A stretch of DNA of 64,000 nt. Source: Arenicola marina. Lineage: Eukaryota > Annelida > Polychaeta > Arenicolidae. Made by a program: the position numbers and the translations under genes. Shown here piece after piece: positions 25,705-61,594 of the stretch; the first letter of the stretch is position 1, and each line of letters begins with the position of its first letter. The stretch spans positions 13,957,574-14,021,573 of the forward strand of contig OZ025248.1 of assembly GCA_964019135.1 (NCBI GenBank), written 5' to 3'. The notes beneath the pieces are model-generated. The model was not told where the DNA came from, searched no databases, and saw only the letters and a program-made list of their open reading frames with translations.

Positions 25705-25904
25705 NNNNNNNNNNNNNNNNNNNNNNNNNNNNNNNNNNNNNNNNNNNNNNNNNNNNNNNNNNNNNNNNNNNNNNNNNNNNNNNNNNNNNNNNNNNNNNNN
25801 NNNNNNNNNNNNNNNNNNNNNNNNNNNNNNNNNNNNNNNNNNNNNNNNNNNNNNNNNNNNNNNNNNNNNNNNNNNNNNNNNNNNNNNNNNNNNNNNNNNN
25901 NNNN
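25705..25904. other. Assembly gap of exactly 200 N
   Basis: Two hundred consecutive N lie between the two arms of the giant inverted repeat. A round number normally marks a scaffold join of unknown size. The sequence just after the gap (AAAACATAAAATGTGAGTG) repeats sequence found 400 bp before it, at about 25509, which hints at a collapsed or misjoined centre. Confidence 0.98.
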
Positions 25905-40506: not shown

Positions 40507-40804
40507 CCTGTAGCGAAGTGGCAAACTAAGTTAATTTACAAGTAGCAGTTGCAGACAGCAGTGTATAACAGCGACTAATTATCAACAAAAATACCGGAAG
40601 CTGACAAGTGTTGTAAGATGTTTGTACCTAGAACACTAATTTACATACCAATTTTACCCAATTGAGGTCTCAAAATATGTGTCGATTAATTCAATCATGC
40701 GGGGTCGAGTGTCGGGGTGGACATTTCAAGGGGATTCAAAATCCATGTTCCAGTAGCTAAGATAGTAGACTAACTGACAATACTTTCGGGTTACTTCTGT
40801 TTAC

Positions 40805-43800
40805 CTGTAATTGATGAGCCAAGTTCTGGATCTGCCTCCGTCGAATGGGGTTGGACAGCTGTCGGACGGCAAGTCCGGCGATGGACGGATCGGACAAGTT
40901 CCATTTCACTTGCGGTTGTTGCCGGAGGACCTCCTCCACCGCGGGGTCGTCGGCTCGCAGTAAGTAGGTACTCGGGAAGTCCAGCAGCTGCCCAAGGTAC
41001 ACAGGGCCCGGGTTAATGGCAACAGTCCGCTCATCCTCATGGACGTCGTCACTTCTCTCGGCACCACGGCCGTATGGCGGCGGAAACTCCCTGTCCCTAA
41101 AAGGGCTGACCCTATACCTCCTGTTGCCATGTTCACGGTGATGCTGACGCGCCGCAGCAGTGTAGTCGAATGCCACGTGTTCCTCTCCGCGATAGCCGCC
41201 GTCAGTCCCATAGTAACCGGCCGACGTGGAGGGTTCCTCTTCTTTGATCTGAACATCACCAGAGTGATCGAACAGAGGACCGCGCGAGTGGTGTCCGCCC
41301 CATCTGCCGACATCCTCGCGTCCATGACCATCATCCCGGCGACTGGAATAGTTCCACTTCCGGTTGTCTGGTCCCACCTGGGGTCCGTCGCACTCCCAGC
41401 CATCATCATCATCATAGCCGGGGTGTAAGCGACCTTCCTGGCTGTCCAGCGAATAGCCAAGCCGCTCTTTGACCGGCAGCCTCCGCGGTTCCACCGACTG
41501 CATGTGGCATAGTACACTCCTCAAGTCCTCACAAGGTCGTCGTCTGGATTCTGCCCACTCTCGGCCGCCCTGACCACCCCTCGGTCGCGTCGTGTGAACC
41601 ACGTTTGGGGGCCCTAATCGTTGGATTACACTGCACTTCTCATTGCCTTTTCGTGGCGAAACTGACGCCGTCCGTCTACGTTTTGAAGGGGAAGAGGAGT
41701 CATCCGTATCGGTCGCTTTCCGTGATCGTTCCGATGTCGTGGATCGTTCCGGTCTCAAGGCGTCAAGAGCGTCTCTTGCCCTAAGCTTTCCACGGGTCGT
41801 ACTTGTCACTGGTGACTTCAACGCCCTCTGTGTCTCCCACATCTCGCCATCTTCGGTGGCGTCCCTTCCTTGACACGGTCCTTCGATGGATTTATGGGGA
41901 CTTCCAGTCCGCGTCATCTCCAGACTATCTCGCCGTAATTCATCTGTGTTTGGGACCAAAAGAGCGTCCTGTTCACATACCAACTCATCAGGTAAGCTAT
42001 GGACCAGCGTACTCTCCGCTTTTTTCCTTGCGTGTATAATAGCCTTTCGTTGTGCCACACCGGCGGCATCTACGTGAAGTGTCACTCTAAGTCTCTCAAC
42101 AGCCTCGGCTTTATTGACAGGACTGCCAATCACTGGCTTCTCAGCCGTGAGTTCGGGGCAATTTCCGGTCTCTCTCTTATCGTCATGTAGCTTGTCGACC
42201 GTGTCGCCCGTTAGCGCTTCAGGTGGGAAGGAAACATCGGATTTTATCGTTTGGGGTGGCGAGGCAACGTCGTCTGATATCTCTTGTGATGGCGAGGCAA
42301 CGTCGTCTGCTATCTCTCGTGGTGGGGAGACAACGTCGTCTGCTATCTCTCGTAGTGGGGAGACAACCTCGTCTGTTATCTCTCGTGGTGGGGAGACAAC
42401 CTCGTCTGTTATCTCTCGAGGTGGGGAGACAACGTCTTCTGGTTTCTCTCGTGGTGGGTAGACAACGTCGTATGCTACCTCTCGAGGTGGGGAGACACCG
42501 TCTTCTGCTATCTCTCGTGGTGGGGAGACAATGTCGTCTGCTATCTCTCGAGGTGGGGAGACAACGTCGTATGCTAACTCTCGAGGTGGGGAGTCAACGT
42601 CGTCTGCTATCTCTCGTGGTGGGGAGACAATGTTGTCTGCTATCTCTCGAGGTGGGGAGACAACGTCGTATGCTACCTCTCGAGGTGGGGAGACAACATC
42701 GTCTGCTATCTCTCGTGGTGGGGAGACAACGTCGTCTGCTATCTCTCGTGGTGGGGAGACAACGTCGTCTGATATCTCTCGTGGTGGGGAGTCAACGTCG
42801 TCTGCTATCTCTCGTGGTGGGGAGACAACGTCGTCTGCTATCTCTAGTGGTGGGGAGACAACGTCGTCTGCTATTTCTAGTGGTGGGGAGACAACGTCGT
42901 CTGCTATCTCTCGCGGTGGGCAGACAACGTCGTCTGATATCTCTTGTGGTGGGGAGACAACGTCGTCTGATATCTCTTGTGGTGGGGAGACAACGTCGTC
43001 TGCTATCTCTAGAGGTGGGGACACAACGTCGTAAGCTATCTCTCGAGGTGGGGAGACAACGTCGTCTGCTATCTCTTGTGGTGGGGAGACAACGTCGTAA
43101 GTTATCTCGCTTGGTGGGGAGACAACGTCGTATGCTATCTCTCGAGGTGGGGAGACAACGTCGTCTGCTATCTCTCCAGGTGGGGAGACAACGTCGTCTG
43201 TTATCTCTTGAGGTGGGGAGGCAACGTCACCCATTATCTCTCGTGATGGGGAGACAACGTCGTCTGTTATCTCTCGTGGTGGGCAGACAACGTCGTCTGT
43301 TATCTCTCCAGGTGGGGAGACAACGTCGTATGTTATCTCTCGTGGTGGGGAGACAACGTCGTATGCTATCTCTCGAGCTGGGGAGATAAAGTCGTCTGTT
43401 ATCTCTCGTGGTGGGGAGACAACGTCGCCTGCTATCTCTCGTGGTGGGGAGACAACGTCGTCTGTTATCTCTCGTGGTGGGGAGACAACGTCGTCTGTTA
43501 TCTCTCGTGGTGGGGAGATAACGTCGTCTGCTATTTCTCGTGGTGGGGAGACAACGTCGTCAGTTATCTCTCGTGGTAGGGAGACAACGTCGTCTGTTAT
43601 CTCTCGTGGTGGGGAGACAACGACGTCTGTTATCTCTCGTGGTGGGGAGACAGCGTCGTTTGTTATCTCTCCAGGTGGGGAGACAACGTCGTCTGTTATC
43701 TCTCCAGGTGGGGAGACAACGTCGTATGTTATCTCTCGTGGTGGGGAGACAACGTCGTCTGTTATCTCTCGTGGTGGGGAGACAACGACGTCTGTTATCT

Positions 43801-46800
43801 CTCGTGATGGGGAGACAACGTCGTCTGTTATCTCTCGTGGTGGGCAGACAACGTCGTCTGTTATCTCTCCAGGTGGGGAGACAACGTCGTATGTTATCTC
43901 TCGTGGTGGGGAGACAACGTCGTATGCTATCTCTCGAGCTGGGGAGATAAAGTCGTCTGTTATCTCTCGTGGTGGGGAGACAACGTCGCCTGCTATCTCT
44001 CGTGGTGGGGAGACAACGTCGTCTGTTATCTCTCGTGGTGGGGAGACAACGTCGTCTGTTATCTCTCGTGGTGGGGAGATAACGTCGTCTGCTATTTCTC
44101 GTGGTGGGGAGACAACGTCGTCAGTTATCTCTCGTGGTAGGGAGACAACGTCGTCTGTTATCTCTCGTGGTGGGGAGACAACGACGTCTGTTATCTCTCG
44201 TGGTGGGGAGACAGCGTCGTTTGTTATCTTTCGTGGTGGGGAGACGTCGTCTGTTATTTCTCGTGGTGGGGAGACAACGTCGTCTGTTATCTCTCGTGGT
44301 GGGGAGACAACCTCGTCTGTTATCTCTCGAGGTGGGGAGACAACGTCGTCTGCTATCTCTCGTGGTGGGTAGACAACGTCGTCTGCTATCTCTCGTGGTG
44401 GGGAGACAACGTCCCCCATTATCTCTCGAGGTGGGGAGACAACGTCGTATGCTACCTCTCGAGGTGGGGAGACAACATCGTCTGCTATCTCTCGTGGTGG
44501 GGAGATAACATCGTCTGCTATCTCTCGTGGTGGGGAGACAACATCGTCTGCTATCTCTCGTGGTGGGGAGACAACATCGTCTGATATCTCTCGTGGTGGG
44601 GAGTCAACATCGTCTGCTATCTGTCGTGGTGGGGAGACAACGTCGTCTGCTATCTCTAGTGGTGGGGAGACAACGTCGTATGCTACCTCTCGAGGTGGGG
44701 AGACAACATCGTCTGTTATCTCTCGAGGTGGGGAGACAACGTCGTCTGCTATCTCTCGTGGTGGGGAGACAACGTCGTCTGATATCTCTCGTGGTGGGGA
44801 GTCAACATCGTCTGCTATCTCTCGTGGTGGGGAGACAACGTCGTCTGCTATCTCTAGTGGTGGGGAGACAACGTCGTCTGCTATCTCTAGTGGTGGGGAG
44901 ACAACGTCGTCTGCTATTTCTAGTGGTGGGGAGACAACGTCGCCTGTTACCTCTCGTGGTGGGGAGACAACGTTGTCTGATATCTCTCGCGGTGGGCAGA
45001 CAACGTCGTCTGATATCTCTTGTGGTGGGGAGACAACGTCGTCCGATATTTCTAGTGGTGGGGAGACAACGTCGCCTGTTACCTCTCGTGGTGGGGAGAC
45101 AACGTCACCCATTATCTCTCGTGGTGGGGAGACAACGTCGTCTGCTATCTCTCGTGGTGGGCAGACGTCGTCTGTTATCTCTCCAGGTGGGGAGACAACG
45201 TCGTATGTTATCTCTCGTGGTGGGGAGACAACGTCGTCTGTTATCTCGTCGTCTGTTATCTCTCGTGGTGGGGAGACAACGTCGTCTGTTATCTCTCGTG
45301 GTGGGGAGATAACGTCGTCTGCTATCTCTCGTGGTGGGGAGACAACGTCGTCAGTTATCTCTCGTGGTAGGGAGACAACGTCATCTGTTATCTCGTTGTC
45401 TGTTATCTCTCGTGGTGGGGATATAACGTCGTCAGTTATCTCGTCGTCTGTTATCTCTCGTGGTGGGGAGACAACGACGTCTGTTATCACTCGTGGTGGG
45501 GAGACAACGTCGTTTGTTATCTCGTCGTCTGTTGTCTCTCGTGGTGGGGAGATAACGTCGTTTGATATCTCGCGTGGTGGGGAGACAACGTCATCTGCTA
45601 TCTCTCGTGGTGGAGATACAACGTCGTCTGCCATCTCTCGTGGTGGGGAAACAACGTCGTCTGATATCTCGCGTGATGGGGAGACAACGTCGTCTGCTCT
45701 ATCTCGTGGTCTGGAGACAACATCGCCTGCTATCTCTCGTGGTGGGGAAACAACGTCTCCTTCTTCCTTGCCTTCACCCCCGAGCGACAGTCGGATGTCC
45801 CATATTAAGTTGTTTGTTTCCAAATTGTTCATATTATAGGAGGTAACTTCTGGTAACTGGTTAACTCCAACCTGATCCCGATTGTCCTCGGTGATACGCA
45901 GCCCTAGACCCGTCCCCAGATCACATTCCTTGTGTGGAGGTTGCCGAGTAACAGTAACATCGTCCAAAGTCTCGCGACGTATCGAGTGTTCAGTGTGCCA
46001 CTGGCCGTCATCACCTGGAGAAACCTCATTGGAGGTTTTCGGGGGTGAGGGGTCCCGCTCACAAACCATCTGAGAAAGCGAGCAATGGATAACCGTGCTC
46101 GCCGCTTTTATCCTTGCATGCATAATAGCCTTTCGTTGGGCCACACCGGCGGCATCTGTGTGAAGAGCCACTTTAAGCCTCTCAACAGCGTCGGCTTTAT
46201 CGACAGGACTGCCGATCACTGGCTTCTCAGCCGTGAGTTTGGGGTAACTTCCAGGCTCTCTGTTGTCGTCATGCAGCTTGTCGACAGTGACGCCACTTAG
46301 CGCTTCAGGTGCGGAGGGAACATCGTTTTGTATCGCTTCAGGTGACGAGACAACGTCGTCTGCTGTCTCTGGTGGTGGGGAGACCGCGTGGACTTCTATC
46401 TTTAGAAGTGGGGAGCTAACGTCGTCTGCTATCTCTCGCGGTGGAGAGGCAACCTCGTCTGCTGTTGATTGAGGTGATGGTGCAATATTAATCACTCCAT
46501 TTTGAGAGCAGATGTCGTTGTTTATCGCTTGAGGTCGAGAGACATCTTCTTTAGTCGCATGGGTAGCAGAGTAGTCTTCTGCCACCCGAGGTGGGGAAGC
46601 AACATCGTCTTCTTTCCTTTGAAGTGGAGTACGAACATCGTCCTCTGTCGTTGCAATTGGAGGGACAACGTCGTCCCCAATCATTGGGACAACTGTATCG
46701 TTTACACTCACTCCAGCTTCGGAGACACCGTCGTCTTGCGGTGGAGAACCGATGCAATCTTCTATCGGTTGAATTGAAGAGACGTCGTTTTTCATATCTG

Positions 46801-48262: not shown

Positions 48263-51200
48263 CTGCAAACACAAAGCCAGGACCATATACGAAAGTGTAG
48301 TAACCTAGTGCTGTACGCAAATCAATACAATGGAACTAACAGCGCCCCAGACTGTTGATCGGACACTTATTACACAGTGACTATTATGTATGTACTCTAG
48401 AAGTCCTATTTTGTCATTTTTAAACAACGAACAGCCTTGGACCGTACACCAATTAGTTTGTGTATACGCCTGCAGCCTGCCTTACATGCCGTCATCGTGG
48501 CAGTACACTGACCTGTATTGAGGACAGCACCAACTGGTGTCTCTCCAGTGTCCGGATTCTCATCTGAAGGAACTTCAGGATGTCGCCGGTGAAGTGGCCA
48601 TCATTACTGGCGATAATAACTCTGAAATAGAGAACAAAAACCCTCATATACAGCAAATCTATCAGTCATATCATTTGTCTTAGAATTAGATACCCCGCGA
48701 CGTTCCACACGATGGATGATATGAAGCTTTTACTCCACAAAGTTGAACGCACTGACCGGAAGTTTACGGAGAGAGAACAACGAAAAATTACATCAAAGAC
48801 ACTATTTGCGAGTAATCAGCTATATTGACAACACGAAGCAAATACCAAAACATATCAAAATACAATGAAATGCGCACCTGAACTTTTCAAGTTTCTTCTT
48901 AATTCTGTCCTGCAGCGCTGTCTTCTGCTTCACATTGGAAACTGCAATTCGTTGAAGAGTTCTTTGTCTATCGAGGTGTAGACAGGCTAACATGAGCGAC
49001 AGGCGAGTCTTTCTCGTCATACTCAGGGCCTCGTGTGTCCGCTTGGCACGATGCTCACAAATCAGCTGTTTTAATGCCAAGAACTTCTCACAATCGCCAC
49101 GCGATAAAGATCCTGCGAGAAAAAGCAGACATCCTTCCTCCGATATGAAGATACTTTTCTCCGACTCGAGCCGGAAATCCTCGGGTAACACTTCGATTCT
49201 TCTACACTTCGCGAAACGTCTTAAATTGAGCAAGTTGTGATTACATATCTCGTACTCCACCTCAAGCACATGAACCCGTCGCTCTTCACACTCAGTGTCG
49301 AGGTGTCGTGTTTCCCGATCACGTAGCTCCCGTCGCGCCGCGATAAGCTTATCCCGTAGACTCGTCGCCAGAGCCTCGTAGTCCATGTCCCTTCCAGTCG
49401 CGGGGCTAGACAGTCCATCCTTCTCAACCGTTACACCTTTGTCACAGACATTCGTACGTTGAATAGATCTCATACAGGCAACTAATGCCTTGTTTGCGTC
49501 TTGCAACAAGCCAGTCCAATCCTTAGTCTCGTCCAACAGTGGCTTCAACAGCTTCTTCATGTAATCCTGCTGGCCTCCGACACGAGGTAATCGGAGTCGG
49601 TGAGCAGTCATTGGCACTTGGCTACAGGTAGGAGACTCAGCCATGGGTGGTTCGGGGGTCGTTGATGAGACAATACCTACAGCTGGTGGACTAGACGTAT
49701 CGGCTTCCACAACTCTGGCCTTTTTCTCTGGAGGAACGTCGGGTAAATTGAGAGCAACTGTTGACTGTATGGAACCAATTACCCCTATGCGCTGTTTATT
49801 CTCTAAGGGGGTCGTCTGTGTAATGTTCGTGCCACCTATTCTATGTGAGTCACACTGCTTCTTCGTAACCGTTCTCTCTCTTATATCGTGGCAGCCGGAT
49901 GTTGATCCAACCCCAGAATTCTGGGATGAGGACAAACCACTATCACCCAGTACAACGTGTCCATCTCCTGGGCTCGGCTCAATCACGGAGCCAGATGTCA
50001 TCCCACCTTCGTTGTTCTGCTCACCGTCGGCCACGTCCAGACAGGAGTCGCTAATATCATCCGCACTCACAGGAGACCGCACGTTTACTGAATCTCTCCT
50101 CTTCTGCTCTGCAGGCGGGTATTTACTCCTCGGGGCATTATCCGGAGGTAAGCCCGGTGCGTTGACGTTACTAATCGCTTGCTGCATGCTGGCAGGCCGC
50201 AGGTAACGCGACGCCCTTGGGTCCGGTGGACCCCCTTGCCTTACTCGCTCGTTCTCAGCATCAAGCGCCGACTGGGGGATTTCTAAAGGATGTGCAATTG
50301 CATCGATCTTGTGTAGACGGCTCTGCCACAACAGATCCACGACAACCTTAAGGTCACCCCAGATTCTAAGGTGGCTGGTGGACTCGTCATTCCTGGTATA
50401 TTGTGTGGGACTTTGCCAGGGGATTTGCCTTGGGCTTTGCCAAGGGATTTTCCTGGGACTTTGCCCGGGACTGGAAGCAGTATCTCGCACAATGCGATTT
50501 CCTTCTCGCATCGTTAGCAAGCTGGCCTGCGCAACTGTAGAGATGTCAGGAGATAATATCTCACTTCTATGCCCATTCGGGGCGGTTGCAGGGTGCGCAT
50601 TTTTACTTTGCGCGGCAGCCGGTCCCAGGCCCAGGGTAAGAGTGTCAACCCGATCGCTTGTCATCAACTCTTCTGCTGGCACAGTTGCATATCCTGACTG
50701 GGGTTGGCTACATGTTGGAACTCCATGCCGAAGTGAATCTACGGATGTGTCCAGTGACTCACGCGATCTGTCAGTTTCAGCGGACGCCACATCAGACTGG
50801 CGTACCTGTATATTCCCTGACTGACCACGGTCGGCTAGGGCTGCTCTCAAAGCGGGAAACCGATCTGGCAATGGATTTGCGTCAAGAATTTGCGTCTCGA
50901 CACGACACTTAGCACTAGTTCTTATTGGTTTCTTCGTGCAATTGGCATTACTCGCCATTACAACTTGTTTGAGCAATGTCGGACCAACAACGGTTGATGC
51001 TGGGTTCTCGGGGGCCGAGTCTCGTGCACTCGCGGTGTCCTCGAGCAGAGGGGTGTCACCACGGGTAATCACCCCGGGAGGGGTCCTGGGCTCGTCAAAG
51101 CTAAAATCATGGTAGGCGTCCTCCGTCGGCTCCTTGACATCCTCCCCGTCAACGTCTTCCTTGACATCCTCCCCGTCAACGTCTTCCTTGACATCCTCCC

Positions 51201-54200
51201 CGTCAACGTCTTCCTTGACATCCTCCCCGTCAACGTCTTCCTTGACATCCTCCCCGTCAACGTCTTCCTTGACATCCTCCCCGTCAACGTCTTCCTTGAC
51301 ATCCTCCCCGTCAACGTCTTCCTTGACATCCTCCCCATCAACGTCTTCCTTGACATCCTCCCCGTCAACGTCTTCCTTGACATCGCTTGAGCGGTTGAGA
51401 TCACACCAAAATTCTAACCCCATCACTCGCAAGGATTCGTCAAACTCAATTTCTAATTCCGGCTGCGTTCTTTGCCTTCGACGTTGTTTGCCTCTGATGG
51501 GCTCTGCACACGGCTCGGTTTTCGCCACCATTGGTCCTCTGAACTCGGTCAACGAACTGCTGGATGTCACTTCGCATGCAGGCGTTTCTAAACTTTCAGA
51601 AGCACGTGCATGGCTTGTTGTGATCCAATCTCCACCGCGATCAGTTCGTACGGGACCATGAGATACCCCAGAAGTGACCCTAGATTCGTCCCTGATCACG
51701 TGCGGATTCGATGTGGGAGGAGATGCTGCATCGCGTACTTGGCAGATTGCAGTGAGCTCGCCATCTTCAGTGGCTGTCTGTACTACTTCACATGACGTCG
51801 TCAATCCAGCCTGAAAGACATTAATACCTTATGTAAATAACACGCTGCAGTACGGGCAAGCTTTGCGGCACCATATAAGATTCTTTTTTTTTGTGAGGAT
51901 TTACTGGTTTAACATAGGCTATAAGTGCTGATCGCTATAACCTAGGAGAGATAAAAACCTATGGCATAACAGGTAGTTTCACTTCTGAATAATTTCCTTG
52001 CCTTCCTAAACCCCTAGCTATTTTGCTCTTCATATAGTGCACGTGGTCTTTCGAAAGTAAACCAGAGTCAAGTTGAACTCCTAGAAATGTTATAATATTT
52101 ACTAGAGTAATACTTTATCTCGACATCACGTTCGCTGTGAAAGGAAAACAGAGATTTTCATCATGAAGAACAACAATCCAGGCACAGAAGTGTCACATTG
52201 ACGAATGAAACGGGACAACTGACTGAAGACAACCCTGCTCAAACATGCATTTCATAGATAAGCCAACGTATTTTACCATTATGTGTTCAATGCTGTGTTA
52301 ATAAACTTACGCTGCTTATTAGTGGTTGGGGATTATCATACTCGTCGGTAGGTGAGTCTCCGGTTAGCGACTCGCTGGAAACACAAGGCATTGCGTCATG
52401 TTTTCAACCCGGAGAAGGCATTTCTTTTTTTTAAAAGGCACACTTTTGAAATGTGAACAATTAACCCGAATACATTTATTAAACGTCTCAATTCTTCACA
52501 AATGTAGTATATATATTATGTTGCCTTTCTAGACATCCATATAAAAACTATCGACCTTTTTTACCTTTTATGCCACATTCAATCATAGAAATGTACAATG
52601 TATATAGTAAGACATACATACCAGATTGCCGCATTTGCGGCGTCCTCGTCACTGTCGTCATCTATGGTAATGACCGCATCCCCACAGCCCGGAGCCCTGG
52701 GAACCTGTCTAATGCTGGCCCAACGCAACGTATCCTGGTACGAATGCAGCAGTCTTTCTTTCTGATTCTCCAGTTGCTGGACCTCTTGCTGAAGACGTTC
52801 GACTTCCTGAAGCTGTTCATCCTCTTTCTCTTCAAGTATTCGTTGTCGTTCTTTTTCCTCCTTTGCTTGTTGTAACTTTAGTTGTCGTTCTTTTTCCTCC
52901 TTTTCTTGTTGTAACAATCGTTGCCGCTCTTTTTCCTCCTTTTCTTGTTGTAACAATCGTTGACGCTCCCTTTCCTCCTTTTCTTGTAACAATCGTTGAC
53001 GCTCTTTTTCCTCCTTTTCTTGTAACAATCGTTGTCGCTCTTTTTCCTCCTTTTCTTGTTGTAACAATCGTTGTCGCTCTTTTTCCTCCTTTACTTGTAA
53101 CAATCGTCGCCGCTCTTTTTCCTCCTTTTCTTGTTGTAACAATCGTTGCCGCTCCTTTTCCTCCTTTTCTTGTAACAATCGTTGTCGCTCTTTTTCCTCC
53201 TTTTCTTGTTGTAACAATCGTCGCCGCTCTTTTTCCTCCTTTTCTTGTTGTAACAATCGTTGACGCTCTTTTTCCTCCTTTTCTTGTAACAATCGTTGCC
53301 GCTCTTTTTCCTCCTTTTCTTGTTGTAACAATCGTTGCCGCTCTTTTTCCTCCTTTTCTTGTTGTAACAGTCGTTGCCGCCGATCTTGTTCTTGTGACTG
53401 CCTGTGCCTTTGTTCCTCCTCTGTTTGTTCTTGTAATTGTCTCTCTAGCGTCCGTTTTAATTCTCGTACAAGTCGCTCGCGCTCTTCGTTTTGTTGATGT
53501 TGTTGTAGCAGGTTGCGAAGTTCTTGGTGTCTCAGTGGCTCCTCCTCTCCGTCCAACGGAGCGATCACGATTGGCGTCACTGTCACAGCACCCGGGACCT
53601 CTATTGGGGGGAGTGTTGCAGGAGAGGAAGCCCGGACGGCTTCAGCGAGTAGCTGATCGAGTGTGTCCTCCAGATCATTGGAGATCAGATCAGTCTGTTC
53701 ATTTGGCATAGTCTGTGGATTGGACACGTGTTCAGGGGATACGGACTGCCCCGTCAAGCCGGCAGTCTGCCCGCCATAGTCAAGATCTCCAACACGGGCT
53801 GTGGCAACACTGTGGTCTCCGGCGCGTCGGCCAGCCCGGGTACCCGAGCCTCCTCTACCGCCTCGGCCACATGAGTCTCCTCTACCGCCTCGGCCACATG
53901 AGCCCCCATTACCACCTCGGCCACCCGAGCCTCCTCGGTCATCCGAGCTTCCTCGGCCACCCGAGCCTCCTCGGCCACCCGAGCCTCCTCTACCACCTCG
54001 GCCTCCTCTACCACCTCGGCCACCCGAGCCTCCTCTACCACCTCGGCCACCCGAGCTCACTCTACCACCTCTGCCACCCAGGCCTCTGCCACCACCTTGA
54101 TCGCTTAAAACATTTGCGTTGAGTATCGTCCTGAGCATAGAGTATTGCACATCTACAGGTAAGTAGGAATGCATCTGTAAGAACCCGACTTCGTTCAAAG

Positions 54201-57200
54201 ACTCGGCGGCGGCGACATCGGGTGCATGCGGCCGTGGTTGAGCCATAGTCCCCAACCCGCTTGCTGTGCTCCCAGCCGACGATGGATATGGGTTTGTGTG
54301 AGGAAACAGGTTGGGCCGTGGTTCCGTCCGTGCCACTGTCGTGTGAACAGCAGGCGATGCCACCACGTTGGCCGCACTTACGGAAACAGAAGGCCCATAA
54401 GGAGACCGCCTGATTGATGGTCGATCAGCCGTGCGGACGGGAGCTGGTAGGATATAACTTGGCTGGGGCGGTAAGCTGAACGACTGGCTCCCATCATACA
54501 CGCTGCCACTGTATTGTTGGCTATGTAACTGACCCACGGGTCCCACAAGCCTGTACAAAGGACTGGGTTGAGTAGAAGTAATGGGCTGTTGTCCGACAAC
54601 TGAATGTTGGACATTGGTCAGGTATCTGGGTAGCAAACCGGACTGTTGGGAAGCATCACCCCTACCAGACCCGCTGGGCGTAAGGTGGTTTGAAAAGTGA
54701 GCGGATGGCGGGAGATTTGATTCTGGACAGAGCAATTGATTAGAATGAGAAATTCCAAGATCTGACCGATACGGTTGATTCGAAGACGTTCCTTGCCTAT
54801 TTTGCTGCGAACGAGATGCATAGCCGATTGCAATTGTCTGGTTGTCATTTGTGGCGCTGGTGTTTGAGGCGTAACTTTCTCCCATTAACTGAGTGGCAAT
54901 GCCACTTTGGCTTGAATATGATCCCAGTATTTCAGTCTGGTTGGCTAGGAGGGACAGATTAGAGAATATCCCGTCAAACGGCGTCGCGGCTTCTGCGGTG
55001 TTCTGACTAGGGTACACCCCAGACGATGTCATGTCAGCAGTGCACTGACTGGGGTACACCCCAGACGATGTCATGTCAGCAGTGCTCTGACTGGGGTACA
55101 CCCCAGACGATGTCATGTCAGCAGTGCTCTGACTGGGGTTCACCCCAGACGATGTCATGCCAGCAGTGCTCTGAATAGGGTTCACCCAAGACGATGTTAT
55201 ACTAGCAGTGCTCTGCCCGGGGAACACCCCAGATAAAGAAGAAGCCGTCTGGCTGGTAACGGTGACTGGACTGGTGGCAGGGGTAGGTCCAGTGGTAGCG
55301 TCAGACTGCGTCTGTGGGGCTGGTAAAGAAAGCCCCTGTGTGTTCTGGCCAGTAGACAAAGCCTCAGATGGGTCCTTAGGTCTCGTAAAGGTCACCAAAC
55401 CGAAAGGGCGCACTTGCCGAGGTCGGTCGACGGGTACATCCACTCCATCTTTGGCCGAGTGGTCATATATGTATACCTGAAATGTGAGAATAATGGTTGA
55501 ACAAGGTCAATTCATCCAGTAAAGTAAACTCGGATTGCAATCTACATATCTACAAACTACGTATCTACGAACTACATATCTAATGTTCCTAATCTACATA
55601 TCTACGAACCATATATCTAATGTCTTCCAGAGGCGTTTCTTCCCAGTGAACTCAAATCGAAATGGAAATACGTATCGAGGTATCAGAAAGTTGTTTGCTG
55701 CCACGTAGATGCCACATATATATATGTATACCCAAATGATGCATTCATCAGTTGTACCGCCACATTTGTGGGCCGGCGACGAGTCTGTATCTGCCCTGAT
55801 ACCATGGCCAGACAAATCAAAAAGTGGTTTCCTGTACCTCGGAGTGAATACTCTGCTCAAGCAGAGACATGGAGACATCTGCCGGTTTATCACTGACGTG
55901 GCAGTCATAGCCCAGGGTTGGTGGGATCGCCACTCCATCATCATTGACCCCGATGGGCCGGCAACGACCCAGTATTACCTACAATGCATTGCAAAACATA
56001 AACATTGAGTGGTTAAAGTCTCACACATGATTTGTCACCGCCCGACCGCTACGCCACATATTTCAAGCAGTACTAAATTCACTATTCTGGTAATCACTGG
56101 TTAATCCTACGATGGCAAAGAGTTTCCTCCAGGGTATTAGCCAGAGACCCGCCTGCCCGCCCATCCGGCGGGCACTTCACTTTTACTTTCACTTTCACTT
56201 TCGGCGGGCAGATTTTCAATTTGGCGGGCACTCAGGTGCTGTTTACTCGCCCAAAAAGGGCCTTTTTGTCGGGAGGTTCAGAAGAGAATCATAGCGCTTA
56301 CAATTTTATATGACATCGAGAACTACTTTTGTCTATAGAATTGTAAATTGCGAGTTCAAAATGCGACCTGATTGGCTAGCGCCATGTTATCTGTGTACAC
56401 TGAAACACTTTTTTTTACCTCAGCCAGCCAAAAAATTCTGCTTAATACCCTGGTTTCCTCCGGGGCTATACACACCAAAAGTAATTACAAACCTCTACCT
56501 CTAGAATTATCGAGGATAGAGGATGGCTATATCGAGCTGCACTTCCTAGTAAGTAGACTCCGTACAGCCATCCTCTTAGTACAGCCAAGGACGTCAGTTA
56601 TTGCAATCGGTTTTCTTTTAGAAACGGTCTTGGCAAGTTGATAACGCTTTAGAAATGACAGCATCAGCAGTACGTTTGTACCTGGCAGACGAACAGGTAG
56701 CATGTCTCGACTCCAGCTTGCCAGGCAGCATGTAACTGTACATCTGCGTTCCGTCCCAGGCACACACCATTGCGGCTTTCACCTGCGGGACAAGACTCAA
56801 TGGTAACAGTCTAAATGATCGTAAGTATATGTGATAGAAACGTTGATTGACGGCAAAACTATGTGCACGGAATAGATAATCCAATCCAAATCCCTACCTA
56901 AGGTATTGAAATTTGTCGCCTTCGTGAGCAGGCCTTCTTTCTTGATGCGCTCGACGTAATCTGTGTCGTGGTGGCAGAAGAAGAGGTAGGTGACGCTCAG
57001 TTCCTCCTCCGTCCTGCTCTGTGCCTGTAGCTCTGCCCTCTTTGCCCTATCATATATATCATCATAATGCTCTCATTAGCAGGATTGGTATCTTTCAAGT
57101 ATTTAGAACGCACATGTATACTCCCAATAACATGGGCTAAACTGCAAACTGTTGTAAGTGAGTAGACTAGTTCATCCTCAAGCCTATTTCGTTCTTCTAC

Positions 57201-60200
57201 CATAAATACAGTTTGCAGATCCGGTCAAAATATTCCACGTATGCTCATTTTCGTCATATCATACAGACAATATTGTCTTGTAGAATTAGTACGTAGGCAT
57301 CAAGAATACGCCATTCATATTACCGACGATAATTATAGAAATCGATTCTCTCTGCATCGATGATCTGTAACAGTACTATGCCATTACCACACAACCTTCG
57401 TGCACGTTTGCTTACAGGAATTCCTGAGAAATGTTTCTGTTGTTGAACAAGAAGATATTCGTCGCTTTCCAGGGAATGGAGTATGCTGTGTTGAGGAAGG
57501 ACTGCACAATCAGGCGCGTTATCTCGCCTCTTAGGAGGCTGCTGTTCTCAGCGCAGGTCGATATCCCTGAAACAAATACCACACATATGTAGACAGCGCA
57601 GAGCAGATTCTTACAACCCTCGATTAACATTATTTATCCAGCCAAGACCGGTATAAAACACCGAATAATATCCCAACGAATGATATGTCCATTAAAGATC
57701 CATCGATGAAAACCAGTATCAATGGAATATCACTCAACGGAAAGTCTGCCTTTCCGCAAAAGAATCTTAGACACATACGTCAACGAAGGAATAAAGTAAA
57801 TAACACAACGAAAAGCATGTCAACGAAACCTATCAACTGGCAGGCTGATCTGATCGTGTTGGGTATCAGTGAGACAATACTTGGATAATACCTCTACACC
57901 TACATCTGTGCATCTGTTTCGATAATGGATGATAAGAACTAAATCATAGTGTGCCACTGAATGTAATTTGCAAAATATTAAAATTCACATATAATGAAAT
58001 GACATCGTGATTCATTGGTGTCTGTAGGGTGGGGTGGCATGGGGGCAATGACGACTAAGGTTGGGAAAGGGGATGTGGCTAAAAAAAATGGCGACATAGA
58101 TGGGGCAAGGGGATGCAGCCCAGAAAGATGACAGAGATGGAGGAGGGGGTGTGGTCCAGAAAGACGATGACATAGAAAGGGGAGGGGGTGTGACTCAGCA
58201 AGATGACAGAGATGGGGGAGGGGGTGTGAGTCAGAAAGATGATGACAGAGATGGGGGGGGGGGGTGTGAGTCAGAAAGATGATGACAGAGATGGTGGGGG
58301 GGAAGTGACTCAGAAAGATGATGGCAGAGATGGGGGAGGGGGATGCGATTCAGAAAGGTCGCAACAGAGATAGGGGAAGTGGGATGCAATTCAGAAATGT
58401 GATGACAGAGAAGGGAGAGCGGGGTGCAGCCCAGAAAGGTGACGACAGAGATGGGGGAGGAGGATGCAGCTCACAAAGGTGAAGACAGAGATGGGGGAGG
58501 AGGATGCAGCTCACAAAGGTGACGACCGAGATGGGGGAGGGGGGTGTGGCTCAGAAAGTTGGTGACAGAGATAGGGGAGGAGGATGCAGATCAGAAAAGT
58601 GACAACAGAGATGGGGGAGGAGGATGCGGCTCAGAGAGATGATGATAATGACAGAGATGGGGGAGGGGGATGCAACTCATAAAGATGACGACATAGATTG
58701 GGCAGGGGGATGCGACTCTGCCTCAGAAGGCACATGGCATATTTCACATAGGTTTTCAGACACTTAAAAACAATTTAACTTTCTGGCTGGCCAGAGAGCT
58801 GCCAGAGAGCCTGCCTGCCCAAAAGGCTCAATCCAGTACATAAATCTACAGGGACGACAGTGCCCGTTACCCCCTGTGGTGGAATATGCACTCATGTCTA
58901 TGATCTACATAGATATTTACACTGGTGGGATGCAAACCACACACTAGCTGCTTGGGCATAAGATATCAGAATACCTGTTCAGCCATTTCGGAAGCCCTGC
59001 TGGCTCACATTTTCTTGAAATTGTAACTTTTAAAAATAATGCATAGAGTCTTATCATAAATTAGCTTGCACTATTTATGCAGATCTGGTAGCCTACCTGT
59101 CATTATTACAGCATAGATCTACTGCAGTTCTCAGGTTATTAGATTCTGCTCTTCAATCTGCATATAAGAAAAATTACAACAGTAAAGTAAGTTGTTATCA
59201 ATGTGAGATCTAGCCTTAAAACAAGACATGTATTACTGTCATAATACAGTTGGCAATGGGACAAATAACTTGTTGTGCATTACTAAGTATCTTACGACAG
59301 TAACGTCTTATTTTAAGGCTATGTGAGATCCAGAAATGTTTAAAGGGTGAAGATCCATCCTGTACAGCTATAGATCTAAATCATAATGACACTGTACGAA
59401 CAGTCATATTATTATAGAGGCTGGGGCGAAGGTCTAAATATCCTGTGTTTTATATAAGGGAGATAACTGGAGTGGAGACATGGGCTGATGGATGCAGGTC
59501 ACACATCATTATCAACACTATAAAGTCTAAGTTGTTGCTGGGACTCTCTGCTCCATGTTTTCCTGTTTACTGCGAGATACAACGGCAACAAGTAGGTTGG
59601 TTGTGGAAGCAAAACTAACTCTCCAGTGCTTGATTAATCCATGTACCAAGCCTGTTCTGATAGATATTTTATTGTTACTCCAAACGAAAGTGTGCTGTGC
59701 ATCCAGTGGGCAAGGATTATGAAGGTCTGGTGGTAAGCTAAATCCAGGCAGGTAACAAGAGAGCTAGCCCAAACCTAGCCTGAATGTTCAGACGTTACAG
59801 TTTGAAAGTGTTGATGTCACCAGGCGCTCAGATCAGTTTATCTGTTGATACGAAGCCCGCCTATGATCTGGTGGTTGATATTACACTGACTAAAGTCAAA
59901 GTCATAAATGCAGTAGCGTGTCGTTTCGGCCCATATCTTCCGTAAATCTGCCGCGATCATTTTCAAAATCCCTGACGTGAAAAAGCAACGTCGTGCAATT
60001 TTAATACCAAACTCATGTTTGTACTGCAATGTTATCCTTTTTTATGACACAAAGAATATTTCTCCATGCTGACACGCCATTGGCGAAAAACGTTCTGTCG
60101 CCAAAATACTAAAACAAGCGTCATAAAATGATGGTTGCCATGGCGCCGAAACATGCTTTGAAAAATACATGCTCTATATTTATACTAGCCTGAAAGTTCA

Positions 60201-61594
60201 GACGCTACAGTCCTGACACTTGTTCTTGGTGACTGTCACCAAGAACAAGTGTCAGGACTGTAGCATCTGAACTTTCAGGCTATATTTATACCAGCCACGA
60301 AGATGCCAAGGCAACTATAGAGCCTTTCATTGTCTGTGATTTAGTCTATTTGTAAAAGGGTGTCTGCTGCCAATGTAGCCTGAATGTTCAGACGTTAGTC
60401 TTAACACTTGTTCTTGTGAGTCACAAGAACAAGTGTCAAGACTGTAACATCTGAATGTGTAACATCTGAACATTCAGGCTACTGCCAATGGAGTGTCAGC
60501 ATGCTGCATGGAGAAATATTGTTTGTCATTAAAAGGGATAACATTGCAGTACAGACGTAAGTTTGCTATCATTAAAATTGCACGGCATTGCTTTCTCATG
60601 TCAGGGATTTTGAAAACGATCGCGGCAGATTTACGCAAGATATGGGCCGAAAAGACACGCTAGGGGCCTACAATTCTATGACTTTGACTTTACCTACAGT
60701 AGTAGGTCAGTACAGTCACAAGAACAAGAACAACACTGGACAAGTCAACAACAAGTTCCAAGTCAAGTGTCCAGTCTGTACTGTCTGAACTTTCAGGCTA
60801 GCCCAAACCTTGTGGCGTTGTATCCAAGGGAGTGACGCTGGAGTCAATCACCAGAAAATCAGAGGTCCGAGGGATCGAAATTACATTACATTGCAAGGGT
60901 ACTCTGTCAAACCAATTTCTACACACCTCGCGTTCTCTATCCGCTGTGTTAGCCGCCATTTTTTTTTTGCGCTGTGACTAGTGGTGACACCTATCGAGTC
61001 GTTGAGAACTAAAAACTGCATGTAATTTCTAGTCCCCAACGACTCGATAGGTGTCACAACTGGTCACTGCACCAAGAAAAAATGGCGGTTGACACCGCGA
61101 AAAGAAACGCGAGGTGTGTAAAAAGCGGGTTTACGATGTAATCTTGCGTGAAAGACCTTGTCAAGTGAGGGCTTTAGTCAAGGTGGTCAAATAGGTTTTG
61201 TGAACATTGCCCAAAGCCTATGGCCTGGTTTCAAACGTTAATGTCGATCCCTCAGACTGTCTCACGACATGAACGTCTCGTATCTCACCCTGCGAGTTTA
61301 ATCCGAGCTATTGTATGATACCGTATGTGCCGTTTCGTGCATTTCGAATTGTAGGCCTAACTTTCAGATTCCACGCGGGCCTCTTCAATGTTCGTGCAGT
61401 GATGGTGTTGTCTGTAACTTTAGTTGTAGCCTTCCGTCTCAGTCACAACTAAGTTACACACAGTCGCTGGGCGCAGCAGGCATAGCAGCACAGTGGGTAC
61501 ACAGACAGCCTGAACCCCATCAGCCGTCGCACTCGCTAGCCATACCTCCTCCCTCCCTCACTACCTCCTGGCTTGGCTCGCCCACAGCCTGCAT
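40805..61594 (-). CDS. TASOR/TEX15-family (DUF3715) giant repeat-rich protein, whole gene span
   Basis: Ten minus-strand exons are proposed: 61546-61594 (candidate), 57416-57566, 56898-57046, 56682-56782, 55838-55978, 52622-55476, 52311-52374, 48878-51810, 48513-48621 and 40805-48262. Intron phases match at every junction, giving 14010 coding nt (4670 codons) before an unresolved last exon. The pseudo-PARP domain (residues about 25-225) shows the family layout: NTLGESRNGVCLGRNADV, VILGRC, GYDCHVS and then PVDRPRQVRPFGLVTF. In vertebrates TASOR scaffolds the nuclear HUSH complex that directs H3K9me3 silencing of retroelements; TASOR2 and TEX15 share the domain. The rest of the protein is low-complexity and repeat-rich. 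Orthology among the three is not decided, and a silencing role is inferred. Introns are 115-703 bp except the candidate first intron (about 4 kb). Confidence 0.8.
41985..42205 (-). repeat. Segment duplicated on the far side of the minisatellite
   Basis: Encodes ELTAEKPVIGSPVNKAEAVE, DAAGVAQRKAIIHARKKAES. A close copy at 46080-46310 encodes KLTAEKPVIGSPVDKADAVE, DAAGVAQRKAIMHARIKAAS. The duplicate segments bracket the 33 bp array, so the array probably expanded between, or together with, a duplicated block. Confidence 0.9.
42225..45760 (-). repeat. In-frame 33 bp minisatellite, about 107 copies
   Basis: Each unit encodes 11 residues of type D-D-V-V-S-P-P-R-E-I-A/T/S. No unit breaks the reading frame over 3.5 kb, which implies selection for an open frame. 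Higher-order duplication is visible: GGGAGATAAAGTCG occurs at 43381 and 43942, 561 bp apart (17 units), with matching flanks. A few units have lost segments of three-base multiples. Confidence 0.95.
48513..48621 (-). CDS. DUF3715 gene exon 9
   Basis: Acceptor CTATTTCAG|AGTTAT and donor ATACAG|GTCAGT; enters in phase 2 and leaves in phase 0, 36 codons plus a split Arg. It reads VIIASNDGHFTGDILKFLQM, then RIRTLERHQLVLSSIQ. The strand-then-helix pattern (I-I-A-S-N-D-G-H-F) continues the folded region at the end of the previous exon. The same I-x-A/V-S-x-D-G opening recurs at the start of the next exon as VSVDGVW. Confidence 0.85.
48878..51810 (-). CDS. DUF3715 gene exon 8 with acidic 9-residue repeats
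   Basis: A 2933 bp exon with acceptor GTCTTTCAG|GCTGG and donor AGTTCAG|GTGCGC, phase 0 in and phase 2 out, 977 codons. The N-terminal third is disordered and contains nine copies of the acidic 9-mer DVKEDVDGE (DNA about 51118-51385, 27 bp unit). A middle region is S/P/Q-rich, with three IPWQSPRQ-type repeats. The C-terminal 280 residues look folded: helical segments MKKLLKPLLDETKDWTGLLQ and RELRDRETRHLDTECEERR, then IFISEEGCLLFLAGSLSRGD and a long basic helix. This folded part lies where known TASOR proteins carry later structured domains, but I cannot assign it to one. Confidence 0.85.
51118..51385 (-). repeat. In-frame 27 bp minisatellite
   Basis: Nine near-identical units coding DVKEDVDGE; the DNA unit on the plus strand contains GTCAACGTCTTCCTTGACAT. 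Near-identity between units points to recent expansion. Confidence 0.95.
52311..52374 (-). CDS. DUF3715 gene exon 7 (64 bp micro-exon)
   Basis: Acceptor GTTTCCAG|CGAGTCG and donor AGCAGC|GTAAGT; enters in phase 2 and leaves in phase 0. It adds CESLTGDSPTDEYDNPQPLI plus SS and bridges the two giant exons. Both splice sites are strong and the length is the only one that restores the frame between its neighbours. Confidence 0.75.
52622..55476 (-). CDS. DUF3715 gene exon 6: domain end, RGG and coiled-coil repeats
   Basis: A 2855 bp exon with acceptor ACATTTCAG|GTATAC and donor ATCTG|GTATGT, phase 0 in and phase 2 out. It begins VYIYDHSAKDGVDVPVDRPR followed by QVRPFGLVTF, the last strands of the pseudo-PARP domain (known members end with P-V-x-x-P-R-Q-x-x-P-Y/F). 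Next are five to six S/T-rich 14-residue repeats (SQSTADMTSSGVYP), a Q/S/P-rich region, a Gly/Arg-rich RGG block (DNA 53820-54085), and a long charged coiled-coil-like repeat of QQEKEEKERQRLL type (DNA 52860-53370). It ends in a short acidic motif ITIDDDSDED, which resembles a SUMO-interaction motif. The plus-strand open frames here are shadows of the repeats. Confidence 0.88.
52860..53370 (-). repeat. In-frame 33-39 bp minisatellite coding a charged coil
   Basis: About 14 units of E-K-E-E-K-E-R-Q-R-L-L-Q with one or two extra Q. The plus strand shows CTTTTTCCTCCTTTTCTTG repeated. The 11- or 13-residue period would form a long charged helix. Confidence 0.92.
53820..54085 (-). repeat. RGG-repeat block
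   Basis: Gly/Arg/Ser-rich repeats of RGGRGGSGG type encoded on the minus strand. RGG blocks commonly bind RNA or are arginine-methylated; that is family knowledge and not shown here. Confidence 0.9.
55000..55210 (-). repeat. In-frame 42 bp repeat
   Basis: Five to six units encoding SQSTADMTSSGVYP and variants; the plus strand shows CCAGACGATGTCATGTCAGC at 42 bp intervals. Confidence 0.9.
55838..55978 (-). CDS. DUF3715 exon 5
   Basis: Acceptor ATTGTAG|GTAATAC and donor TCCGAG|GTACAGG, phase 0 at both ends, 47 codons. It begins VILGRCRPIGVNDDGV and continues AIPPTLGYDCHVSDKPADVS and MSLLEQSIHSE. G-Y-D-C-H-V-S matches the family's N-F/Y-D-C-H-x-S signature between two strands. Confidence 0.88.
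55979..56681 (-). other. Intron with MITE between DUF3715 exons 4 and 5
   Basis: A 703 bp intron. It contains the 325 bp MITE copy 2 (56129-56453). No other feature is visible. Confidence 0.8.
56129..56453 (+). mobile_element. Small inverted-repeat element (MITE), copy 2
   Basis: Ends CCAGGGTATTAGCC (56129-56142) and GCTTAATACCCTGG (56440-56453) are inverted. The interior matches copy 1 at 14829-15037 in reverse orientation, including GGGCAGATTTTCAATTTGG and CTCAGGTGCTGTTTAC. TTTCCT lies directly outside both ends (with two further C residues in common), a likely 6-8 bp target duplication. This copy is longer, with extra sequence near its right end. Confidence 0.82.
56682..56782 (-). CDS. 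DUF3715 exon 4
   Basis: Acceptor CCGCAG|GTGAAAGC and donor TGCCAG|GTACAAAC; enters in phase 1 and leaves in phase 0. It encodes ESRNGVCLGRNADVQLHAAW and QAGVETCYLFVCQ. Another frame of the same stretch is open for longer, but only this frame fits the neighbouring phases and continues the domain (G-V-x-L-G-R-x-A-D matching the family's GVY-S-R/K-H-x-D). A MITE lies in the intron that follows. Confidence 0.85.
56898..57046 (-). CDS. DUF3715 exon 3
   Basis: Acceptor ATGATAG|GGCAAAG and donor CCTTAG|GTAGGG; enters in phase 2 and leaves in phase 1. It reads AKRAELQAQSRTEEELSVTY, then LFFCHHDTDYVERIKKEGLL and TKATNFNTLG at the junction. The pattern helix, S-Y-L-F strand, I-x-x-x-G-L and T-L-G is typical of the family, where the LG is followed by GVY or GVC in the next exon. 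Confidence 0.85.
57416..57566 (-). CDS. DUF3715 exon 2: start of pseudo-PARP domain
   Basis: Acceptor TTTCAG|GGATATC at 57567/57566 and donor TTCCT|GTAAGC at 57416/57415; enters in phase 1 and leaves in phase 2. It encodes about 50 residues: GISTCAENSSLLRG, LIVQSFLNTAYSIPWKATNI and FLFNNRNISQEFL. The helix followed by a strand and an N-x-x-F-L end corresponds to the N-terminal part of the TASOR domain, where similar residues precede an acidic/basic helix. Confidence 0.8.
57567..58097. other. Candidate first-intron sequence, nothing recognised
   Basis: Non-coding upstream of exon 2. A 67-codon plus-strand frame (57685-57888) is rich in Lys/Asn and shows no domain. Confidence 0.4.
58098..58705. 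repeat. Purine-rich minisatellite, about 36-42 bp unit
   Basis: About 15 degenerate units with AAAGATGATGACAGAGATGG, GGGAGGGGGATGC and CAGCTCA. One strand is almost purely purine plus T, a composition able to form triplex or G-rich structures. Not coding. Confidence 0.9.
58706..59201. other. Non-coding, nothing recognised
   Basis: AT-leaning sequence inside the candidate first intron. No feature recognised. Confidence 0.4.
59211..59321. mobile_element. Hairpin element, TAGCCTTAAAA ends, 9 bp target duplication
   Basis: The ends TAGCCTTAAAA and TTTTAAGGCTA are inverted, and the stem extends through AAGAC / GTCTT and TTACTGTC / GACAGTAA. TGTGAGATC lies directly outside both ends (59202-59210 and 59322-59330). 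The 9 bp duplication and TAGCC start match the family at 59.8-60.8 kb. 111 bp, no coding capacity. Confidence 0.88.
60186..60282. mobile_element. 97 bp near-perfect palindromic element nested in the foldback
   Basis: TAGCCTGAAAGTTCAGACGC at the left is inverted at the right end, and the palindrome continues through CAGTCCTGACACTTGTTCTT to the centre GGTGACTGTCACC. TATTTATAC flanks it on both sides (60177-60185 and 60283-60291), a 9 bp target duplication. It appears to be the minimal form of the surrounding family. Confidence 0.93.
60376..60481. mobile_element. 106 bp palindromic element nested in the foldback
   Basis: Ends TAGCCTGAATGTTCAGACG and CTGAACATTCAGGCTA, with an inner stem ACACTTGTTCTTGTGA / TCACAAGAACAAGTGT. 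CTGCCAATG flanks both sides (60367-60375 and 60482-60490), a 9 bp target duplication. Near the right end TAACATCTGAA is duplicated. Confidence 0.93.
60922..61118. mobile_element. 197 bp hairpin element with TA target duplication
   Basis: Ends CACACCTCGCGTT and AACGCGAGGTGTG are inverted, and TA flanks both sides. Most of the element forms a long imperfect stem, with AGCCGCCATTTTTT / AAAAAATGGCGGTT and ACACCTATCGAGTCGTTG / CAACGACTCGATAGGTGT as clear pairs. TA duplications are typical of Tc1/mariner-type elements, so it may be a MITE mobilised by one. Confidence 0.85.
61119..61545. other. Candidate first-intron sequence
   Basis: Between the TA-flanked hairpin element and the candidate first exon. 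No feature recognised. A plus-strand open frame at 61311-61616 has no domain. Confidence 0.35.

Follow-up and report, generated by a model that had tools for sequence, protein, structure and literature searches.

How should one read a gene that joins a DUF3715 domain, the pseudo-PARP domain of TASOR, TASOR2 and TEX15, to several thousand further residues rich in tandem repeats? The question is raised by a stretch of 64,000 nucleotides (nt) from the polychaete Arenicola marina (GenBank assembly GCA_964019135.1, contig OZ025248.1, positions 13,957,574 to 14,021,573), hereafter the window, whose minus strand carries such a gene (the window gene). Comparison at the level of sequence establishes gene models for this gene and for a tandem paralogue just outside the window, an N-terminal DUF3715 domain and further conserved blocks in both, unrelated repeats in homologous exons, and a reading frame kept open through those repeats. 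We consider the chances about even that the pair encodes giant nuclear pseudo-PARP scaffolds for RNA-directed silencing, with partner-binding blocks set among disordered linkers. What appears to be new is a DUF3715 tandem pair in which SPOC was not found, two conserved blocks lacking Pfam or PDB relatives, and unrelated repeats in homologous exons; a partial survey of the literature on TASOR in annelids and on coding minisatellites in paralogues returned nothing on this gene pair. Statements credited below to PMC7532188, PMC7955679, PMC8770142 and PMC10578480 draw on excerpts of those papers.

A nine-exon gene with an N-terminal DUF3715 domain

All nine exons of the window gene are bounded by AG acceptors and GT donors, and their splicing yields a single stop-free frame that reaches the last donor after 4,653 codons (coding sequence, 13,961 nt), with entry phases of 1, 2, 1, 0, 0, 2, 0, 2 and 0 for exons 1 to 9. 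Reading on past the donor at 40804 gives 4,668 residues and a stop at 40757. We regard this nine-exon model as confirmed at the sequence level, since the tandem paralogue has nine exons with identical entry phases. The preliminary description had proposed nine phase-consistent GT-AG exons, about 4650-4670 residues and an N-terminal pseudo-PARP domain, and all three proposals are borne out. The coding exons, in window coordinates, are as follows.

57416..57566, minus strand: exon 1, N-terminal part of the pseudo-PARP domain, entering in phase 1 (AG acceptor, GT donor, open frame; homologous exon of the same phase in the paralogue)
56898..57046, minus strand: exon 2, DUF3715 (splice sites, Pfam, paralogue)
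56682..56782, minus strand: exon 3, DUF3715, with GVCLGRNADVQL (splice sites, Pfam, paralogue)
55838..55978, minus strand: exon 4, DUF3715, with PPTLGYDCHVS (splice sites; 47% identity with the paralogue)
52622..55476, minus strand: exon 5, final DUF3715 strands (VYIYDH ... RPRQVRPFG), then about 900 low-complexity residues (splice sites, Pfam)
52311..52374, minus strand: exon 6 (splice sites; homologous exon, LTGD, in the paralogue)
48878..51810, minus strand: exon 7 (splice sites, open frame)
48513..48621, minus strand: exon 8, which carries on the helical conserved block (splice sites, paralogue)
40805..48262, minus strand: exon 9, 7,458 nt (equal entry phase and terminal donor in exon 9 of the paralogue)
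40496..40507, minus strand: possible last coding exon of three residues and a stop (AG acceptor, phase-compatible; unproven)

The two ends of the gene are less firmly placed. Exon 9 closes with the donor at 40804, which together with the possible last exon means that the stop at 40757 may be unused; an AATAAA signal lies at 39180-39175. At the 5′ end, a tenth exon proposed in the preliminary description (start codon at 61594) could join in phase by way of a weak donor, gtatgg, but the upstream region of the paralogue lends it no support. When the upstream regions of both genes were compared, 11 weak matches appeared, of which one is exon 1, none is convincing and none falls at the ATG-61594 candidate, so that the 5′ end is unproven. 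Neither a scan for phase-1 donors, in a strict form that passes over this candidate, nor a scan for a lysine/arginine-rich start produced a convincing first coding exon in either gene.

The spliced N-terminal 230 residues match Pfam DUF3715 (PF12509) across the whole model (positions 2-150 of 150) with 50.3 bits against a cut-off of 28.5 and an E value of 3.5e-13. Among PDB chains searched to an E value of 10, the domain matches human TASOR (6tl1) alone, at 2.3e-13 over residues 23-214. The paralogue behaves likewise, with 54.9 bits in Pfam and TASOR 6tl1 as its sole PDB match below 0.01 (E 7.5e-13), and the two domains share 36% identity over 180 columns (blastp, E 2e-35). At the positions of the NAD-binding H-Y-E triad, taken from PMC7955679 and PMC7532188, alignment of the sequences places F-C-E in the window protein and T-N-Q in its paralogue, which makes catalysis unlikely; enzyme activity has probably been lost in both domains. 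In TASOR, the DUF3715 domain is a pseudo-PARP needed for targeted trimethylation of histone H3 lysine 9 (H3K9me3), other parts of the protein assembling the partners (PMC7532188). It is also needed for transposon silencing, where the DUF3715 domain of TEX15 can replace it (PMC10578480).

A tandem paralogue with shared conserved blocks

In genome-wide searches of the assembly (867 Mb, 762 contigs), the spliced domain gave weak matches 5-7 kilobases (kb) past the low end of the window. A second gene lies there on the same strand (C1:13935414-13954478), with nine exons corresponding one-to-one to those of the window gene and a possible tenth. Its open frame spans 4,498 residues; counting the tenth exon raises this to 4,513. 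The total lengths of the two proteins are nearly equal despite very unequal exons: in the paralogue, exon 7 is 6,896 nt long and exon 9 is 4,386, and the corresponding lengths in the window gene are 2,933 and 7,458. We had entertained the window gene as a lone giant; the paralogue of near-equal length rules this out, and giant size is common to both genes.

Six stretches are conserved between the two proteins: the DUF3715 domain, four blocks detected by blastp and an IDDD motif. Those outside DUF3715 map to the window as follows.

52645..52674, minus strand: VITIDDDSDE, resembling a SUMO-interacting motif, 16 residues before the end of exon 5 (conserved place in the paralogue)
51034..51129, minus strand: conserved block PTEDAYHDFSFDEPRTP, in exon 7 (53% identity with the paralogue, E 4e-5)
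50065..50409, minus strand: conserved block with RVRQGG-x-x-DPR, in exon 7 (29% identity, E 1.4e-4)
48880..49599, minus strand: helical conserved block in the last part of exon 7 (32% identity in the exon-7 part)
40805..41011, minus strand: conserved C-terminal block (VYLGQLLDFPSTYLL ... RRRQIQNLAHQLQ), in exon 9 (49% identity)

Including its run into exon 8, the helical block aligns over 447 columns at 27% identity (E 6e-28), and the C-terminal block over 72 columns (E 3e-13). Neither has relatives in Pfam or among PDB sequences; a profile of the helical block matched one PDB entry, CREB1, at E 0.32, and no TASOR chain. Whole-genome searches to E 10, which covered these two blocks in their paralogue versions, returned two matches each, both within this pair. 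AlphaFold2 renders the helical block mostly as helix at low confidence, with a predicted local distance difference test (pLDDT) score of 49.6. For the motif resembling a SUMO-interacting site, the pattern alone is within chance (one seen in the window protein versus 1.45 expected by shuffling), and its conserved place is therefore the evidence: the paralogue has VIVIDDDAEE 15 residues before the end of its exon 5.

Unrelated in-frame repeats in homologous exons

The preliminary description reported five unrelated tandem repeats, and the repeat scan recovers five main in-frame arrays together with a few short ones.

54998..55233, minus strand: tandem array of 42 base pairs (bp) x 5.6, exon 5 (in frame; repeat scan, frame test)
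53842..54097, minus strand: Gly/Arg-rich tandem array with periods of 18-54 bp, exon 5 (open frame; repeat scan, outside the frame-gap test)
52840..53380, minus strand: tandem array of 36/39 bp x 14 (KEEKERQRLLQQ), exon 5 (in frame; repeat scan, frame test)
51131..51384, minus strand: tandem array of 27 bp x 9.4 (KEDVDGEDV), near-identical units, exon 7 (in frame; repeat scan, frame test)
42255..45757, minus strand: tandem array of 33 bp x 105.5 (DDVVSPPREI), exon 9 (in frame; 102/102 extracted units in frame 0)

In the paralogue, exon 7 carries 36- and 54-bp arrays instead of the 27-bp array, and exon 9 a 15/30-bp array (GSDKDGSKKD) instead of the 33-bp array; the repeats in both exons are unrelated between the two genes. 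Arrays account for 36.0% of the coding sequence of the window gene (5,022 of 13,961 nt) and 27.0% of that of the paralogue. An earlier characterization of the protein as a giant built from minisatellites is thus right about the large in-frame arrays but overstated in the word built.

The arrays keep the frame. In seven of the coding arrays, all periods are divisible by three and none of 72 non-zero inter-unit gaps breaks the frame. The exon-9 array of the window gene has inter-unit gaps of 15 or 30 nt only, and stop-creating departures number zero in the coding frame versus 12, 12, 28, 2 and 8 in the other five. Eight larger, hand-picked non-coding arrays served as a contrast that we do not use as proof, given that other non-coding arrays in the region also have periods divisible by three; their out-of-frame gaps are moreover inflated because units were skipped. 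Amino-acid constraint follows a different course. The ratio of non-synonymous to synonymous change in the window exon-9 array is 1.01, which shows no sign of constraint and contradicts our expectation; an earlier test of the array with a protein-level pattern had been biased. A ratio of 1.01 fits a free linker, and it also fits a young or weakly used stretch. The paralogue array gives 0.35, a sign of constraint, and one of its reverse frames gives 0.41, which we think is due to coinciding third positions. Overall, the frame is kept in both genes, and the unit sequence looks free in the window gene but not in the paralogue.

These observations bear on whether the exon chain might join two or more separate genes or decaying copies, the repeat exons lying outside the DUF3715 protein. 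The unusual length and the unconstrained exon-9 array would suit such an arrangement. We judge it very unlikely: the paralogue repeats the nine exons in matching order and phase, the repeat exon is preceded by conserved sequence and also closes with it, and both frames stay open for about 4,500 codons or more.

The window protein contains 82 SP-x-R/K sites versus a mean of 7.2 in shuffled sequence, and 68 of them are SPPR. Such units would fit phosphorylation regulated through the cell cycle. They speak for an alternative in which these DUF3715 proteins have no part in silencing and do other work in the nucleus, for example in RNA processing or as a structural matrix. The molecular function of DUF3715 is stated to be unknown (PMC10578480), and the binding domains of silencing partners were not found here, both of which also favour this alternative. 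The paralogue, however, has 7 such sites versus 7.6 expected, so any role of the sites is not common to the pair, and the DUF3715 domains that have been tested, those of TASOR and TEX15, both act in transposon silencing (PMC10578480). We therefore hold another nuclear job to be somewhat unlikely, although it is the strongest competitor to a silencing scaffold.

Relation to TASOR, TASOR2 and TEX15

DUF3715 proteins occur across animals (PMC10578480). Schopp and colleagues describe TASOR-like proteins, present in invertebrates, as DUF3715 followed by SPOC and DomI, TEX15 as vertebrate-specific and TASOR2 (TASORB) as a vertebrate duplicate of TASOR (PMC10578480). We scanned the window protein against Pfam (E up to 1) in pieces comprising the N-terminal 230 residues, exon 5 (951 residues), exon 7 (977 residues) and, from exon 9, 600 residues at its start and 500 at its end, a set that passes over exons 6 and 8 and the centre of exon 9. 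No SPOC, TASOR_alpha-beta, PIN_TASOR or TEX15 (PF15326) domain was found in these pieces, and exon 7 matched TRIC only, below cut-off (E 0.32). Directly after DUF3715, neither Pfam nor the composition of exon 5 revealed SPOC or DomI, in a search at sequence level that leaves fold comparison aside. Bulky hydrophobic residues make up 0.33-0.37 of 120-residue windows in DUF3715 versus 0.10-0.27 after residue 181, in windows listed to residue 1380, and return to 0.33-0.38 at the exon 7-8 block. Genome-wide searches by single exons, run without a positive control, likewise found no PIN_TASOR, TASOR_alpha-beta or TEX15 domain PF15326.

Two further DUF3715 genes exist in the genome (C6:17073520 and C2:5069627), scoring 84.2 and 86.0 bits. 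Neither the window gene nor its paralogue was picked up by the family search, since introns split their domains, and four DUF3715 genes are accordingly a lower bound. All four copies read 27-28% identical to human TASOR; the window protein and its paralogue are closest to each other (36%), and other pairs range from 27 to 31%. A tree was one of the checks proposed beforehand. With human TASOR as the sole vertebrate among five rows, it pairs the window gene with its paralogue at 91/94, below the tool's mark of 95/80, and gives the remaining branching, including the position relative to TASOR, weak support (52/13). In the C6 and C2 genes, one exon after the domain was scanned in each and gave no Pfam match. 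The exon after DUF3715 in the C6 gene (L022:5980-7623) has poly-alanine and histidine-rich runs, its frame ending in KRIKYF and a stop, and the one in the C2 gene (L026:1384-4122) has an in-frame tandem repeat of 15 residues (ESGGAVGHLSCGTDA). We rejected a link between the exon-7 block and the C-terminal stretch of the C2 gene, for which hhalign gave a probability of about 0.1% (E 0.63).

With the SPOC, TASOR alpha-beta, PIN and TEX15 domains unfound in the scanned pieces, the window gene is not a TASOR, TASOR2 or TEX15 as defined in print. Membership in that trio, put forward in the preliminary description, is not upheld, the four genomic copies being equally far from human TASOR. Greater length than the vertebrate members did prove correct, at 4,653 residues versus 1,670 for human TASOR, 2,430 for TASOR2 and 2,789 for TEX15 (PMC7955679).

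A periphilin domain and possible partners

A search of the genome for a periphilin-like partner, also suggested beforehand, was productive. Pfam Periphilin_C has a single match above cut-off, at C1:29147663 (L040, C1:29147663-29147776). The exon alone scores 36.7 bits (cut-off 27; E 5e-9) over positions 46-83 of the 84 in the model, and among PDB chains it matches Periphilin-1 best (6swg, E 1.4e-5). Close to this exon lies a reading frame with abundant R, G, S and E, for which Pfam gave no match. A paper of 2020 described HUSH as restricted to vertebrates (PMC7532188), and the excerpts of PMC7955679, PMC10578480 and PMC7532188 contain no statement on an annelid periphilin. The domain lends some weight to a HUSH-like role for the window gene.

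Might the pair then be diverged annelid TASOR orthologues, serving as the HUSH scaffold with SPOC-DomI and PIN changed beyond recognition in sequence? TASOR is the only strong PDB match of their DUF3715 domains, the genome encodes a periphilin C-terminal domain, and the helical block lies far behind DUF3715, as does the periphilin-binding stretch of human TASOR (residues 1000-1085; PMC7532188). Against orthology, the 900 residues after DUF3715 are so poor in bulky hydrophobics that they leave little room for a SPOC barrel, Pfam detects no TASOR_alpha-beta or PIN_TASOR in the scanned pieces, and the C6 and C2 genes both outscore the pair against the family model. Orthology strikes us as unlikely.

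The silencing scaffolds that we favour are conceived by analogy with TASOR. We infer a nuclear location, loss of enzyme activity, a silencing role, partner binding and a linker role. The N-terminal DUF3715 domain would be a catalytically dead PARP fold through which RNA directs the silencing of transposons or repeats. Two or three sites would bind partners, namely the helical block of exons 7-8, the C-terminal block and the motif resembling a SUMO-binding site. The stretches between them would be disordered linkers, in which minisatellites may expand and be replaced while the frame stays open, and the length of this padding may matter more than its sequence. Several results weigh against such a scaffold. 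SPOC and DomI, which TASOR needs (PMC7532188), were not found in the scanned pieces, and a periphilin-binding segment was not recognised when the helical-block profile was compared with PDB sequences. AlphaFold2 models of the conserved blocks are both of low confidence (pLDDT 49.6 and 61.6), the DUF3715 scores below 84.2 and 86.0 bits mark the pair as divergent, and the start codon of the window gene is not proven. The ratio of 1.01 in the window array gives no sign of amino-acid constraint, and that of 0.35 in the paralogue speaks against a linker of wholly irrelevant sequence.

A bolder version would make the two genes a SPOC-free class of DUF3715 silencers that also act on themselves, their giant repetitive exons being among the targets. 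Exons encoding repetitive polypeptides carry TASOR-dependent H3K9me3 in human cells (PMC7532188), and long exons carry HUSH-dependent H3K9me3 (PMC8770142). The long exons of the pair (window gene, 7.5 kb; paralogue, 6.9 kb) are of that kind, so that growth of their repeats would lower the expression of their own genes. If true, each gene would be a self-limiting sensor of repetitive transcription, and the paralogues would be free to swap repeats with total length kept. We put this forward as a long shot, the least probable of the readings discussed.

Surroundings of the gene pair and the mitochondrial genome

Upstream of exon 1, positions 59771-61147 of the window hold a cluster of near-perfect palindromes, for example one with 48-nt arms that are 98% complementary and 1 nt apart and a second with 92-nt arms, which resemble short inverted-repeat transposons. 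A near-identical frame of 121 residues occurs in inverted orientation at 25144-25509 (plus strand) and 26590-26955 (minus strand), flanking a gap of 200 N at 25705-25904; a palindromic duplication or an artefact of scaffolding would give this appearance. Minisatellites abound in the neighbourhood, and large non-coding examples lie at window positions 1057-4565 (37 bp x 95) and 5147-7712 (62 bp x 41) and, outside the window, at C1:14034679-14041364 (59 bp x 112).

The mitochondrial genome is contig C762 (15,942 bases), whose cox1 contains 13 in-frame TGA codons. On one strand, the order runs cox1 N cox2 D atp8 Y G cox3 Q nad6 cob W atp6, a non-coding stretch, then H nad5 F E P T nad4L nad4 C M rrnS V rrnL L A S L nad1 I K nad3 S nad2, which we take to be the annelid ground pattern. 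Protein genes were assigned by eye from reading frames, the two ribosomal RNA genes by gaps and the transfer RNAs (tRNAs) by ARAGORN, which found 22; of these, an extra tRNA-Val within the non-coding stretch, on the opposite strand, was taken as false, and tRNA-Arg was not found with this program. A sea urchin as the source was considered and rejected: by bit score, a tektin exon was scarcely nearer to the sea urchin tektins of 8snb than to those of mammals (142 versus 131 bits), and the mitochondrial order points to an annelid.

Comparison with known systems

The window gene resembles TASOR (FAM208A), the HUSH core subunit, in its N-terminal DUF3715 pseudo-PARP domain, in long stretches without recognisable domains and in a genome that encodes a periphilin-type domain. 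It differs in its length, some 2.8-fold that of human TASOR (1,670 residues, PMC7955679), in its own conserved blocks and in forming a tandem pair, and SPOC, DomI and PIN were not found in the scanned pieces. With TEX15, a factor of the PIWI-interacting RNA (piRNA) pathway, it shares the N-terminal DUF3715 domain and great length, but the TEX15 domain was not found in the scanned pieces or in the genome-wide exon search without a positive control. TASOR2, compared by description only, is likewise large and carries DUF3715. The C6 and C2 genes share the domain and an intron just before its last segment (VYLYE), and the C2 gene also has an intron before the preceding segment and in-frame tandem repeats; they differ in their identity of 27-31% and in leaving the helical and C-terminal blocks unmatched.

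A DUF3715 layout without a detected SPOC-DomI, in a genome with a periphilin C-terminal domain, makes it possible to enquire which elements of the silencing scaffold are ancestral. For disordered linkers, the tandem pair amounts to a natural experiment: matching exons, near-equal length and unrelated repeats allow length or charge to be separated from sequence. Mucins and AHNAK are the familiar coding-minisatellite proteins, with long exons of in-frame tandem repeats. In contrast to these, the repeats described here are unrelated to one another and yet occupy homologous exons of two paralogues.

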